NCBI RefSeq assembly: GCF_003730015.1
Contig: NZ_RJTU01000047.1
Location: 1-64,000, forward strand
Direction of reading: 5' to 3'
Length of the DNA: 64,000 bases
Source: Epilithonimonas hominis
GTDB lineage: Bacteria > Bacteroidota > Bacteroidia > Flavobacteriales > Weeksellaceae
Shown: positions 36,174 to 41,138 of the stretch, piece after piece
Numbering within the stretch: position 1 is the stretch's first letter
Layout of the letters: every line of letters starts with the position of its first letter
The notes under the pieces: model-generated
Database searches by the model: none
Told to the model about the DNA's origin: nothing
Seen by the model: the letters and a program-made list of their open reading frames with translations, nothing else
Translations under genes and position numbers: made by a program

Positions 36174-38825
36174 ATGAAACTATACTTTAGTGTTAACTTC
36201 GGAACAAAAGTTGGCCAGCGACTCGTTTTGCGCCTGTTTGAGGACAAAAACGAGCATCGGGACTACGACTTGACTTATTCCGAAAATAACAACTGGACCA
36301 CAGAAATTGATTATTTTTCAAAATCAATTCTCTACAAATATCTTGTCGTGAACGAAGATGGGGAAGTTTTGGAGGAAGAGATTCCTTTTCACAAGCTCAA
36401 TCTTCCAAACAGTTTTAAAGAATTTGTAATCTTTGACCAATGGAATCTCAAAAACTTTCCTGAAAATTATTTAACCAACAAAATTCTGCATAATCGTTTG
36501 CAAGGTTTTCAGCCTGCAAAACAACCGGTTGTTAAGAAGCATACGCATCTTTTCAGAATAGAAGCGCCACTTTATCATCCAAATTGGCAATTGGTTTTGG
36601 TTGGAAATGTGGATGCTCTGGGAAATTGGGATTACGAAAAAGCTGTTGAACTGAGCGAAACAGATTACGGCGTTTGGGAAACCGGCGTTGAAATTAATTC
36701 TCATCAGACAATTCTTTACAAATACGCGATTAAAGATAAAAATACAGGAAAAGTTTTTTACATAGAGCCAAACGAAAATCGTTGGGTTTTTGGAAATCCA
36801 AATAAGGATATTCTTTATGTGAAAGCGGACCATTATTTCAAATTCGATAATCACACACTTTGGCATTCTGCGGGCGTTGCGGTTCCTGTTTTTTCTTTGA
36901 GAACTGATGACGGTTTCGGTGTTGGAGAATTTCCTGATATCAAAAAATTGGGAGATTGGGCTAATGAAACCAAATTGTCTGTCATCCAAATTTTGCCGAT
37001 CAACGATACAACTGCAAATTACACCTGGACGGATTCTTATCCTTACGCCGCGATTTCGGTTTATGCACTTCATCCGCAATATCTCTCGATAGAGAAATTA
37101 GAATATGCTTTGCCGAAAGATTTGGTTGAAGATTATCAGGCAAAAAAAGCAGAACTGAATGCTTTAAGTCTGATTGACTACGAGCAGATGATTTCCGGAA
37201 AATGGAAATACGCAACGGCTGTTTTCGAAGCAAATCAAGAAGCGATTCTTAAAGATAAAAACTTCAAAAAGTTCATTAAAGATAATGAGGAATGGCTGAT
37301 GCCTTATTCTGCATTTTGTGTTTTAAGAGACAAATACAAAACGCCCAATTTTAATGAATGGAAGACTCATAAAAAATATGTTGCCGGAAAAGTAGCGACA
37401 CTTTATTCACCAAAACATAAAGAATATTCTCAATTAATGCTTCACGCTTGGGTGCAGTATCAATTGCATTTGCAACTGCAAGATGCTGTAGAATATCTTC
37501 ATAAATTGGGAATTTCCGTGAAAGGAGATTTGCCGATAGGGATTTATAGATATTCTGTAGAAGCTTGGACAGAGCCGGAATTGTTCGGAATGGATTTTCA
37601 AGCTGGAGCACCGCCAGATCAATTCTCGGATTTGGGACAAAACTGGGAATTCCCGACTTACAATTGGGAAGTAATGAAAGCCGACGGTTACCAATGGTGG
37701 AAAAAACGTTTCAAAGTCTTAGAACAATATTTTGATGCCATGAGAATCGACCATATTCTTGGATTTTTCAGAATCTGGAGAATGCCGATTTCTGCGACTC
37801 AAGGTTTGTTGGGTTATTTTTATCCGGCGCTTCCTGTGACTGAGAAAGAGTTTGCAGGCAGACAGATTCCGTTTAATTTTGACCGTTATGTAAAACCGTT
37901 TGTGAATGACCCGATTCTTTGGGAGAACTTCGGAGATGTGAAAGACAAAGTTCAAAATCATTTTTTTGATACTCATAATGGAACCATTACTTTCAAACCG
38001 GAATTTGACACCCAGAGAAAATTAACAGACTATTTCAAAAAAGAATCTTGGGATTGGGCAGAAGAAAAATTGATTTCTTTGGCTGGAAATGTTTTGTTTT
38101 TAACTGAAGAAACAGAAAACGGAACTGTTTATCATCCAAGATTTAATATTGCAAAAACGACTTCTTACAAATATCTTCCGGATTGGGAAAAAGCAAAACT
38201 GAGTGATGTTTACAATGATTATTTCTTCAAACGTCAGGATGGACTTTGGTATCAGAAAGCAATGGAAAAATTACCGGCTTTACTGAATTCTACAACAATG
38301 TTGATTTGTGGCGAAGATTTAGGATTGGTTCCGGATTCGGTTCCTGTGGTGATGGATAAGTTGGCGATTACCGCTTTGAAGGTTCAAAGAATGCCTTCTG
38401 AAAATATCGCTTGGTACGACCCAAAAAATGCAAGTTATCTTAACGTTGTTACAGCGTCTTCTCACGACAGTTCTACGCTAAGACAATGGTGGCACGAAGA
38501 TAGAAATTTGACTCAGAAATATTTTAATCATCAATTAGGTCAATATGGAACTGCGCCTTGGGATCTAACTCCGGAATTGTCAGAAATGATAATGAAACAG
38601 CATCTTTACACGGATGCAATGTTGGCGATTTTCCCTATTCAGGAATTTTTGGCAACCGATCAAGAATTGATGAATCCGAATATGGATGAGGAGAGAATCA
38701 ACAATCCTGCAGTTTTCCCACATTATTGGAGATACAGAATGCATCTGAAATTGGAAGATTTGAAAACCAAAGACAGGTTCAATCAAAAAATTGCAAGTTG
38801 GGTTGAAAACAGTGACCGATTTTAA
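36174..38825 (+). CDS. malQ: 4-alpha-glucanotransferase with two N-terminal starch-binding domains
   Basis: Disproportionating enzyme that moves alpha-1,4-glucan segments between maltooligosaccharides or glycogen. The 883-residue chain has no signal peptide and begins with two CBM20-like domains (about 1-100 and 120-225; the second has WQLVLVGNVDALGNWDYEKA). The GH77 catalytic domain follows, with the nucleophile Asp526 in AMRIDHILGFFRIW, acid/base Glu714 in ICGEDLGLVP, and Asp765 in SSHDSSTLRQWW. The layout matches the DPE2-like group found in plants and Bacteroidetes, so heteroglycan or maltose processing is likely. No other glycogen or maltose gene is adjacent. Terminator at 38844. Confidence 0.9.
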   Translation: MKLYFSVNFGTKVGQRLVLRLFEDKNEHRDYDLTYSENNNWTTEIDYFSKSILYKYLVVNEDGEVLEEEIPFHKLNLPNSFKEFVIFDQWNLKNFPENYLTNKILHNRLQGFQPAKQPVVKKHTHLFRIEAPLYHPNWQLVLVGNVDALGNWDYEKAVELSETDYGVWETGVEINSHQTILYKYAIKDKNTGKVFYIEPNENRWVFGNPNKDILYVKADHYFKFDNHTLWHSAGVAVPVFSLRTDDGFGVGEFPDIKKLGDWANETKLSVIQILPINDTTANYTWTDSYPYAAISVYALHPQYLSIEKLEYALPKDLVEDYQAKKAELNALSLIDYEQMISGKWKYATAVFEANQEAILKDKNFKKFIKDNEEWLMPYSAFCVLRDKYKTPNFNEWKTHKKYVAGKVATLYSPKHKEYSQLMLHAWVQYQLHLQLQDAVEYLHKLGISVKGDLPIGIYRYSVEAWTEPELFGMDFQAGAPPDQFSDLGQNWEFPTYNWEVMKADGYQWWKKRFKVLEQYFDAMRIDHILGFFRIWRMPISATQGLLGYFYPALPVTEKEFAGRQIPFNFDRYVKPFVNDPILWENFGDVKDKVQNHFFDTHNGTITFKPEFDTQRKLTDYFKKESWDWAEEKLISLAGNVLFLTEETENGTVYHPRFNIAKTTSYKYLPDWEKAKLSDVYNDYFFKRQDGLWYQKAMEKLPALLNSTTMLICGEDLGLVPDSVPVVMDKLAITALKVQRMPSENIAWYDPKNASYLNVVTASSHDSSTLRQWWHEDRNLTQKYFNHQLGQYGTAPWDLTPELSEMIMKQHLYTDAMLAIFPIQEFLATDQELMNPNMDEERINNPAVFPHYWRYRMHLKLEDLKTKDRFNQKIASWVENSDRF

Positions 38826-38843
38826 TCCGCAAAAATAAACTTT

Positions 38844-38871
38844 AAAGCCTTTCAAGTTTTTGAAAGGCTTT
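38844..38871 (+). terminator. terminator after malQ
   Basis: Perfect 12-bp stem AAAGCCTTTCAA / TTGAAAGGCTTT with a T run. Confidence 0.9.
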
Positions 38872-38884
38872 TTTTTGTTGAAAA

Positions 38885-38914
38885 TTGTTGCTCTGATTAT
38901 CAGATATAAATTTG
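38885..38914 (+). promoter_or_regulatory. candidate promoter TTG-N19-TAAATTTG
   Basis: TTG at 38885-38887, a 19-base spacer and TAAATTTG at 38907-38914 match the flavobacterial -33/-7 consensus spacing. It would give a leader of about 180 bases before the gene at 39099, including a small AACATT / AATGTT hairpin at 39050-39064. Confidence 0.4.
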
Positions 38915-39098
38915 ATTCTTGAATTGAATTTTGATTCGAAATCTAAATTTTCGTTTAACTTTTATTATTCGTCAATATCCAAAAGATAGAAAGTTTCATT
39001 TTAAGGAAAAAATGGATTTTCAAACTTAATTTAAAAATAAAAGGAATGAAACATTAAAAATGTTCCATTTGATAATTAACAAAAATAAATAAGAACAA

Positions 39099-40070
39099 AT
39101 GAAAAAGATATTTTTAACTCTTGCTATTATTTTTGGAGGATTAGTTTCTGCACAAGATTATTATGACACTTATCCAAACGATTATAACGGATACGAATAT
39201 TATGATGATTCCTACGATTATCCGGACGATTATTATTACAACTATCCAACGGATTATTATCCGGATCAATATTATAAAGGATATTATAACGACTACCGAA
39301 ATGCGGTTTTCTCTGTGAATTGGAATCAGTTTTTTGTCCAATACAGACTTACGCCTTTCCAAATAGATCAGATTTTGGCACTCAATAATCGTTTTGCTTC
39401 ATATGCCGCTTGGAATGCTTATTACAGATGGAACCCAGACAGATGGTATTATGACAGATTTTATGCTTTGCAAAATATACTTGGTCCAAGAATCTTTGTA
39501 GTGTATCAAAATGTTTATTTCCGTGGTGCAAGTCCGTTTGTGTATTACAGAAACCGTTGCGTGAACTTTTATGCAAGACGTTATCCGGTAAGACCGATTT
39601 ACAGAAATGTGAATATTAATATCTATAAAGTAAACCGAGGAAATTTCCGAGAAGGATTTAGAGAAAATGTCAGAAATCAAGGGATGATAAACCCAACCAG
39701 AAATAACGGAATCAGAAATGATAATCCAAGAAGTGGTTCTAACGGAAATAATTGGGGCGCAATCCGAGGTTCTGAAAATAATGGAATCAGAAATCAGCAA
39801 AACTCAGGAATCAGAACTAATGAAAATGGAGGAATCAGAAATTCCGGTGGAACAAGAGATAATAATTTTGGAGGAATAAGAAGCGGAAATAATTCTGATA
39901 ATATACGAAATCAATCTTCTCCTAATATTAGAAATCAAGGCGGTATCAGACAAAACCAAAACTCTGAAAGAATAGAAAATAGAAGTAACGAACGTTCTAT
40001 CCAGAGAAATTCTACCCCAAAGTCTGAAAGCGGAAACAGAGGTTCTGGAATGAGATTCACTTCAAGATAA
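39099..40070 (+). CDS. secreted Tyr/Asp-rich protein with Ile-Arg repeats
   Basis: Exported protein of 323 residues of unknown function. After a signal peptide ending GLVSAQ come four parts. Residues 20-68 are almost only Tyr, Asp, Pro and Asn. Residues 69-115 form a globular-looking segment with YRLTPFQIDQILALNNRF. Residues 115-185 are aromatic and Arg-rich. From about 195 onward the chain is low complexity, with about ten spaced Ile-Arg units (NNGIRN, GAIRG, SGIRT, GGIRN, GGIRS, DNIRN, PNIRN, GGIRQ). The tail is strongly basic and the start acidic, suggesting polyelectrolyte or surface binding. It precedes a Spy-like gene with a similar LTxxQhxxI motif. Confidence 0.7.
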   Translation: MKKIFLTLAIIFGGLVSAQDYYDTYPNDYNGYEYYDDSYDYPDDYYYNYPTDYYPDQYYKGYYNDYRNAVFSVNWNQFFVQYRLTPFQIDQILALNNRFASYAAWNAYYRWNPDRWYYDRFYALQNILGPRIFVVYQNVYFRGASPFVYYRNRCVNFYARRYPVRPIYRNVNINIYKVNRGNFREGFRENVRNQGMINPTRNNGIRNDNPRSGSNGNNWGAIRGSENNGIRNQQNSGIRTNENGGIRNSGGTRDNNFGGIRSGNNSDNIRNQSSPNIRNQGGIRQNQNSERIENRSNERSIQRNSTPKSESGNRGSGMRFTSR

Positions 40071-40169
40071 AAGTATTTAACAAAAATTTATAACATCAAT
40101 CACTTAACAATATAAATTATTACAAATCCAACAAACAGATAAAATTTATAAATATTAAAATCGAAAAAA

Positions 40170-40550
40170 ATGAAAAAATTAATTTTAAGCTCGGCATTTC
40201 TTGGACTAGGAGTTTTTGGATTTGCACAGACAACTTCAGATAGAAAAGGAAATTTTGAACAAAAAAAGGCAGCGCATATGCTGGAGATGAAGCAAGAGCT
40301 TAATCTTACAGATGCGCAAGTTGCCCAAATAAAAACTTTACACGAGAAAAAAGCTGCAGAGAGAAAGCAGGAAATGGCAGCCAAGAAACAAGACCGAATG
40401 AAAATGATGAAAGATAATGAAGCAGAAATGCAGAAAATCTTAACGCCTGATCAGTTTAAAAAATTTCAGGCACTGAAAGAGAAGAAAATGGCAGAGAGAA
40501 AAGAACATTTTCAAAAAAGAAAAGCTGCAAATACAGCCGTAGTTAAGTAA
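40170..40550 (+). CDS. Spy/LTXXQ-like periplasmic helical protein
   Basis: Small exported protein of 126 residues. A signal peptide ends at GFGFAQ (about residue 20). The mature part is a highly charged all-helical protein rich in Lys, Glu, Met and Gln, with LNLTDAQVAQIKTLHEKK and ILTPDQFKKFQALKEKK. These two LTxxQ-type segments are the pattern of Spy/CpxP-like periplasmic proteins, which act as chaperones or metal-stress sensors in other bacteria; the role here is inferred only from that likeness. It follows the Ile-Arg repeat gene by 99 bases without a terminator and is probably co-transcribed. A terminator follows at 40577. Confidence 0.7.
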   Translation: MKKLILSSAFLGLGVFGFAQTTSDRKGNFEQKKAAHMLEMKQELNLTDAQVAQIKTLHEKKAAERKQEMAAKKQDRMKMMKDNEAEMQKILTPDQFKKFQALKEKKMAERKEHFQKRKAANTAVVK

Positions 40551-40576
40551 GTTATTTTTTAGTGGTTAATTTTGTG

Positions 40577-40602
40577 AAAGAGTGGGTTTTTATCCGCTCT
40601 TT
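40577..40602 (+). terminator. terminator after the Spy-like gene
   Basis: Stem AAAGAGTGG / CCGCTCTTT with one G-T pair, then a T run that merges into the ferritin -7 box. Confidence 0.75.
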
Positions 40603-40605
40603 TTT

Positions 40606-40613
40606 TATATTTG
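40606..40613 (+). promoter_or_regulatory. -7 box TATATTTG of the ferritin gene
   Basis: TATATTTG 15 bases before the ATG at 40629. It immediately follows the terminator, and it rules out the in-frame upstream TTG at 40611 as start. Confidence 0.5.
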
Positions 40614-40628
40614 GAAAAAATAACAATT

Positions 40629-41138
40629 ATGGTAAGTGAAAAAATAATAAATCTCATCAACGAACAAATTACTAAAGAACAATATGCAGCCCAGCTGTAT
40701 CTTTCTATGAGTGCGTGGTTTTATACCAAAGATTTGGAGGGGATAGCTAACTATTTCCGGGTGCAGTCCAAAGAAGAACTGATGCACGCAGACAAGATGT
40801 TTGACTATGTGCACGATATCGGCGGAACTATTATATTAAATGAAATTCCCAAACCACCACACGAATTTTCCAGCGCTCAGGAAATCTTTGAAAAAGCCTT
40901 AGACCACGAAAGATTGGTTACTAAAAGTATTTTTAATATTGTGAAAGCCGCCAACGACGAAGGTGATTTTGCAACCACAAGCTTCCTGCAATGGTTTATC
41001 AATGAGCAGGTGGAGGAAGAATCCAGTGCATCGCTTTTGGTTACGAAGATCAAAATGGTAAAAGACAATCCGTCTGCGTTGTATCTCTTTGACCAAGAAT
41101 TGGCGCAAAGGGTTTTCAATCCAGCTGCTGAGAATTAA
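40629..41138 (+). CDS. ftnA: non-haem ferritin
   Basis: Iron-storage protein of 169 residues that forms a 24-subunit shell and oxidises Fe(II). It shows the four-helix ferritin layout: LINEQITKEQYAAQLYLSMSAWF (first helix, ferroxidase Glu), FRVQSKEELMHADKMFDYVHDIGG with the Glu and His ligands of the di-iron site, and FLQWFINEQVEEESSASLL with the remaining Glu and Gln ligands. No haem-binding Met of bacterioferritin was recognised. Single gene, sharing a bidirectional terminator with the converging helicase gene. Confidence 0.93.
   Translation: MVSEKIINLINEQITKEQYAAQLYLSMSAWFYTKDLEGIANYFRVQSKEELMHADKMFDYVHDIGGTIILNEIPKPPHEFSSAQEIFEKALDHERLVTKSIFNIVKAANDEGDFATTSFLQWFINEQVEEESSASLLVTKIKMVKDNPSALYLFDQELAQRVFNPAAEN

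Follow-up and report, generated by a model that had tools for sequence, protein, structure and literature searches.

A protein with two charged arms, probably a diverged Spy relative, encoded beside a Spy-like protein in Epilithonimonas hominis and related genera

We analysed a stretch of 64,000 nucleotides from Epilithonimonas hominis (contig NZ_RJTU01000047.1; hereafter the window), which carries two neighbouring genes, A and B, on the forward strand with 99 bases between them (Table 1). Both open reading frames lie where the first-pass annotation had placed them. A gene for a 4-alpha-glucanotransferase (PF02446) precedes A, and a ferritin gene (PF00210) follows B, as it also does in 15 of 18 related loci. 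Across the window (36174-41138) and loci L050-L069, one gene order turns up repeatedly, in varying forms, in many of the genera read: glucanotransferase, A, in some cases a short paralog of A (family P, see below) and a glycosyltransferase gene, B, ferritin and a DUF3857/transglutaminase-like gene.

Table 1. Positions of genes A and B and of associated features in the window
Feature	Position	Strand	Basis
Gene A, 323 aa	39099..40070	+	Open reading frame
A, signal-peptide-like start, residues 1-18 (predicted)	39099..39152	+	Read by eye
A, acidic Tyr/Asp-rich arm, residues 19-60	39153..39278	+	Composition over 19 loci
A, conserved 95-residue core, residues 63-157	39285..39569	+	Gapless alignment; low-confidence model helices
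A, first Spy-like motif LTPFQIDQI, residues 84-92	39348..39374	+	Aligned with LTDAQVAQI of B
A, second, degenerate motif position ILGPRIFVVYQ, residues 127-137	39477..39509	+	Pairs with ILTPDQFKKFQ of B in alignments that contain short paralogs, not by A alone
A, basic Asn/Gly/Arg tail with G-hydrophobic-R units, residues 196-323	39684..40067	+	Units counted against shuffles
Gene B, 126 aa, Spy-like (LTXXQ)	40170..40550	+	PF07813; E. coli Spy match
Terminator-like hairpin ahead of A	38844..38871	+	Hairpin scan; 14 of 19 loci
Terminator-like hairpin after B	40576..40603	+	Hairpin scan; 19 of 19 loci

The product of gene A begins with a predicted signal peptide, recognized by eye in its N-terminus (MKKIFLTLAIIFGGLVSAQ), and continues with a Tyr/Asp-rich acidic arm and the core; behind the core come a stretch rich in Tyr, Arg and Pro and, last, the basic tail. 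We compared it over 19 loci, that is, the window and 18 relatives from Epilithonimonas, Chryseobacterium, Flavobacteriaceae or Weeksellaceae (identities up to 95 percent, the nearest named relatives being Epilithonimonas). In all of them the N-terminal 51-residue stretch contains 19-20 Tyr and 7-11 Asp and has a net charge of -9 to -12, and the net charge of the C-terminal stretch lies between +12 and +20 in 18. Thus, the course from an acidic Tyr/Asp start to a basic tail that had been described for the window was seen throughout these loci, with one exception at the C-terminal end. In Epilithonimonas hispanica (L004:3821-4792), an in-frame TGA follows residue 180 of A, shortly past the core. 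The protein would therefore lack its tail, although the frame beyond the stop codon is still open.

The first-pass annotation had regarded the short segment LTPFQIDQI as the only ordered-looking part of A. Instead, we found a domain of 95 residues that aligns without gaps and has 15 invariant columns. The alignment comprised 22 chosen rows, of which 17 are long A proteins (15 genera) and five are short paralogs. The part of the domain between the two motif positions is rich in Trp, Tyr and Arg. The A core of L052 (G006) reads WYYER where others have WYYDR, and this column is therefore not invariant across the whole family; because the search pattern missed WYYER, this protein is absent from the hhalign sets and from the tail count described below. 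Comparison with 17 relatives, L004 being excluded for its stop codon, gave pN/pS values of 0.15 (arm), 0.14 (core) and 0.44 (tail) within A, and 0.22 for B. This implies constraint on the whole coding frame, weakest in the tail.

With regard to the tail, nine x-I-R-x units and one GMR can be counted by eye in residues 196-323, in agreement with the roughly ten spaced xIRx units claimed before, and 10 of the 17 hydrophobic residues in this region are followed by R or K. The strict pattern G-[FIVLM]-R occurs seven times, whereas 500 shuffles gave 0.33 on average and never more than two. When the 67 collected A proteins were reduced to 45 distinct tails by removing identical tails and tails of less than 60 residues, the count exceeded the shuffle mean in all 45 and the shuffle maximum in 38, the remainder being L002, L014, L015, L018, L019, L062 and L063. 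The hydrophobic residue of the unit is mostly I, V or M in Epilithonimonas loci and F in several other genera (all 12 units of L049 are GFR). The idea of an Ile-Arg repeat thus holds in that the units are above chance, but the general unit is G-[F/I/V/M]-R, of which Ile-Arg is the local version.

AlphaFold2 yielded weak models, with a mean pLDDT of 39.6 for full-length A and 53.8 for the core, values that are too low to establish a fold. In the weak full-length model pLDDT was below 50 for residues 12-54 and 134-323, which is consistent with the earlier suggestion that the arms look disordered. Helices were placed at residues 56-71, 75-81, 86-99, 102-108 and 115-128 of the core, and motif 2 was drawn as a strand. 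A Foldseek search with the core model returned no match at E 0.001, the Hsp70 C-terminal and BB0323 chains (E 7 to 10) being set aside, and VIA-align gave a Z of at most 4.0. Since the core model is weak, matches from these fold searches were not used; the absence of Spy among them excludes nothing.

Sequence searches revealed no Pfam, NCBIfam or PDB family for A, and no convincing family or PDB match for the core, the g23 form (see below) or the short paralogs, two of which were searched against NCBIfam. The best PDB rows for the core were NANOG homeodomains (E 0.1), which we took as chance. In open PubMed Central text nothing was found on the A protein. The view that A belongs to no described family is therefore maintained, and A is an undescribed protein that, from its signal-like start, is probably exported.

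Outside the window's own family, searches across the order (246 genomes, short-paralog profile), class (295 and 395) and phylum (296) sets, which overlap, found no convincing relatives. At most 7 to 17 candidates per genome were scored in each search, a limit at which weakly similar distant relatives may escape detection. Nine weak outside matches (G232, G423, G618, G811, G823, G858, G905, G918 and G991; E 0.001 to 0.0096), seven of them with stop codons inside, were taken as chance. Four of these (G811, G823, G858 and G905, all of genus g310) match the core profile at E 0.001 to 0.002 in the same profile region, with stop codons inside.

Judged from a profile match and two LTxxQ motifs, gene B encodes a small protein of the usual Spy (LTXXQ) type. 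It scores 26.7 bits against PF07813 (cut-off 24.3) and matches E. coli Spy (3oeo) with an E-value of 0.0025; the CpxP and Spy models of NCBIfam match it below their cut-offs. Its motifs, LTDAQVAQI (residues 46-54) and LTPDQFKKF (residues 91-99), are 45 residues apart. PF07813 is insensitive in this group: B passed above the cut-off in only one of five genomes. Spy itself has two LTxxQ motifs and forms a cradle-shaped dimer (PMC4791398).

Both motifs of B are echoed by LTPFQIDQI of A, and a further echo, one absent from the first-pass annotation, lies 44 residues past the first, where ALQNILGPRIFVVYQ of A stands opposite EMQKILTPDQFKKFQ of B. The A core keeps the two motif positions of the Spy/CpxP LTXXQ family, of which B is a member, with nearly equal spacing (44 vs 45 residues). 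It has LTPFQ at motif 1; however, motif 2 is degenerate and reads LGPRI, the stretch between is rich in Trp, Tyr and Arg, and A carries two long charged arms.

By hhalign, the A core alone scored 24.0 against B over 23 columns, covering the first motif only (probability 13.6 percent), whereas the maximum of 60 column shuffles was 15.2, reversed B reached 9.8 and ferritin 12.0. Short paralogs scored 31.3 with five rows and 26.5 with 14 rows (shuffle maximum 14.2; L061 and L069 were lost from the 14-row set by the pattern), both motifs being covered. With the g23 form added to the short set the score was 28.0 (maximum of 59 usable shuffles 12.2), and all core rows together with the short forms gave 28.5 with both motifs aligned (maximum of 60 shuffles 16.4). 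The hhalign probabilities for kinship with B ranged from 14 to 61 percent. When signal peptides were removed, BLASTP against B placed 11 of the 15 short forms above 24.6 bits, which was the top score in 20 shuffled rounds, while four stayed at or below it. A reservation is that the shuffles used here and with hhalign lose helical periodicity. PF07813 matched neither A nor the 22 core rows, the short paralogs or the g23 form.

It is probable, then, that the LTxxQ echo pointed out in the first-pass annotation reflects distant homology, as the alignments lie above shuffles, reversed B and ferritin. Considering these controls together with the unmatched PF07813, the low probabilities and the weak models, we count A as a probable, diverged relative, not as a member, of the Spy family.

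Short forms of the core also occur. Family P aligns with A at an hhalign probability of 99.9 percent and has the same 95-residue core without gaps; unlike A, it lacks the acidic arm and the G-hydrophobic-R tail and has a short Lys-rich end instead. P genes lie beside A in some genera (L060:3809-4324, L061:2673-3059, L067:2508-3017, L069:2493-2867 and L055:3492-3965), and in some genomes of genus g20 they are found elsewhere, near other genes (L073, L079 and L080). In four genomes of genus g23, only a short form is present at the locus (for example, L128:1378-1881 and L131:1396-1896). This form reads GEMERIMTPAQYKRF at motif 2, and its MTPAQYKRF, with MTPAQ, is nearly the canonical Spy motif. 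In BLASTP it matched B with 37.4 bits without signal peptides, and one comparison with window B that included the signal peptide gave an E-value of 5e-11. From its sequence, the g23 short form may resemble the ancestral state.

Within the family, the A core was detected in 143 of 197 genomes (19 of 33 genera) and a B-like protein in 168 (24 genera), although this sample is uneven, genera g20 and g26 contributing most. The position of A was listed for 139 genomes, and in 128 of them B follows on the same strand, at no more than 2.7 kb from the core (no more than 1 kb in 101). As for the others, the listed B lies elsewhere in eight, several of which have A near a contig end, and no B is listed in three. 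In the remaining four of the 143 genomes, those of genus g23, a short form precedes B at a distance of about 1.3 kb. A tally across genus listings places B downstream in 14 of 19 genera. The gap between A and B exceeds 1 kb in 27 genomes; the seven that were read contain a short paralog, a glycosyltransferase gene (PF13528) or both, the latter gene being present in six. Thus, the two genes are neighbours in relatives, as the first-pass annotation had anticipated when it paired A with its Spy-like neighbour, and neither of the two outcomes that it had named as refuting its reading was observed.

The hairpin scan found no hairpin between A and B in any of the 19 loci, the window included; in the window region as a whole it found six terminator-like sites against 1.5 expected. 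With hairpins ahead of A and after B (Table 1), the two genes, as read from their DNA, have the layout of one transcription unit, although a separate promoter for B is possible.

We tentatively propose that A and B constitute a single transcription unit of two genes whose products are exported to the envelope; A would be a diverged Spy-type core with arms and, together with B, would form a protective holdase or scaffold. This reading is possible but falls short of probable, and 11 of the 139 genomes have B elsewhere or not listed. The anatomy, conservation, pairing and unit layout are supported by computation, and so is the relatedness of the core to B above controls, the kinship itself less firmly; what we infer is export, the fold, condensation, activity as a chaperone or scaffold, and contact between A and B.

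Several other explanations were considered. The tight pairing of the genes and the sticky arms of A would also suit a role for B as a dedicated escort chaperone, which keeps A, an aggregation-prone sticky surface or matrix protein, soluble in the periplasm. However, B-like proteins are present in genomes that lack the A core (168 vs 143 of 197), A is without a nearby B in 11 of 139 genomes, and the A core itself looks Spy-related, all of which makes this role somewhat unlikely. It is also rather unlikely that A belongs to the surface matrix as a structural or adhesive protein whose arms bind cell-surface polysaccharide or other polymers and which has no chaperone role of its own. Arms of strongly opposite charge with spaced units would be expected to suit such a protein, as would the glycosyltransferase gene in six of the seven gapped loci, but neither an outer-surface sorting signal nor an adhesin family was found in A with Pfam and NCBIfam, and the core and acidic arm are the most constrained parts while the tail is the loosest.

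A chance echo of LTxxQ, with A being an unrelated low-complexity exported protein that happens to lie beside a Spy-like gene, seems very unlikely to us. No Pfam or NCBIfam profile links A to LTXXQ, A alone aligns only briefly, and helical, charged proteins can look alike; on the other hand, the scores are above all shuffles, reversed B and ferritin, the motif spacing is nearly equal, and motif 2 of the g23 form is nearly canonical. By far the least probable is that A binds metal or iron as a partner of the ferritin encoded next to B. The ferritin gene does follow B in most relatives, but a hairpin separates B from the downstream genes in 19 of 19 loci, for which reason this link was ranked low, and the 15 invariant core columns contain no His, Cys or Met.

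Under the two-gene unit that we favour, A would derive from an ancestral fold common with B, the core keeping the two Spy motif positions and serving as a Spy-like or oligomeric hub. The oppositely charged arms could make many weak contacts with each other, other copies of A, B, unfolded envelope proteins or surface polymers, and A together with B might form, in the periplasm or on the cell surface, a holdase or scaffold with a protective role. A more specific form of this proposal, which we consider quite unlikely as it stands, is that A represents a new kind of extracytoplasmic protein with a Spy-derived hub and two sticker arms, one acidic and Tyr/Asp-rich, the other basic with G-hydrophobic-R units. 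It would condense in the periplasm or on the surface and, with its co-transcribed partner B, make up a chaperoning condensate peculiar to the family.

An analogy is provided by CsgF, an accessory protein of E. coli curli, which has a disordered aromatic-containing arm and undergoes condensation that depends on Phe residues and is linked to curli assembly (PMC10133297). A would likewise be an envelope protein with a disordered-looking aromatic arm, but the likeness is by description only, and condensation of A is putative. We know of no Spy-like partner or basic repeat tail of CsgF. CsgF is a precedent for sticker chemistry outside the cytoplasm.

The A core is strongly conserved and occurs in 143 of the 197 family genomes sampled, yet it is unnamed in Pfam or NCBIfam. 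If A does combine a Spy-type core with two sticker-rich arms, it would illustrate a route from a simple holdase to a multivalent scaffold, and the pair would offer a small two-gene system for the direct study of condensation outside the cytoplasm.
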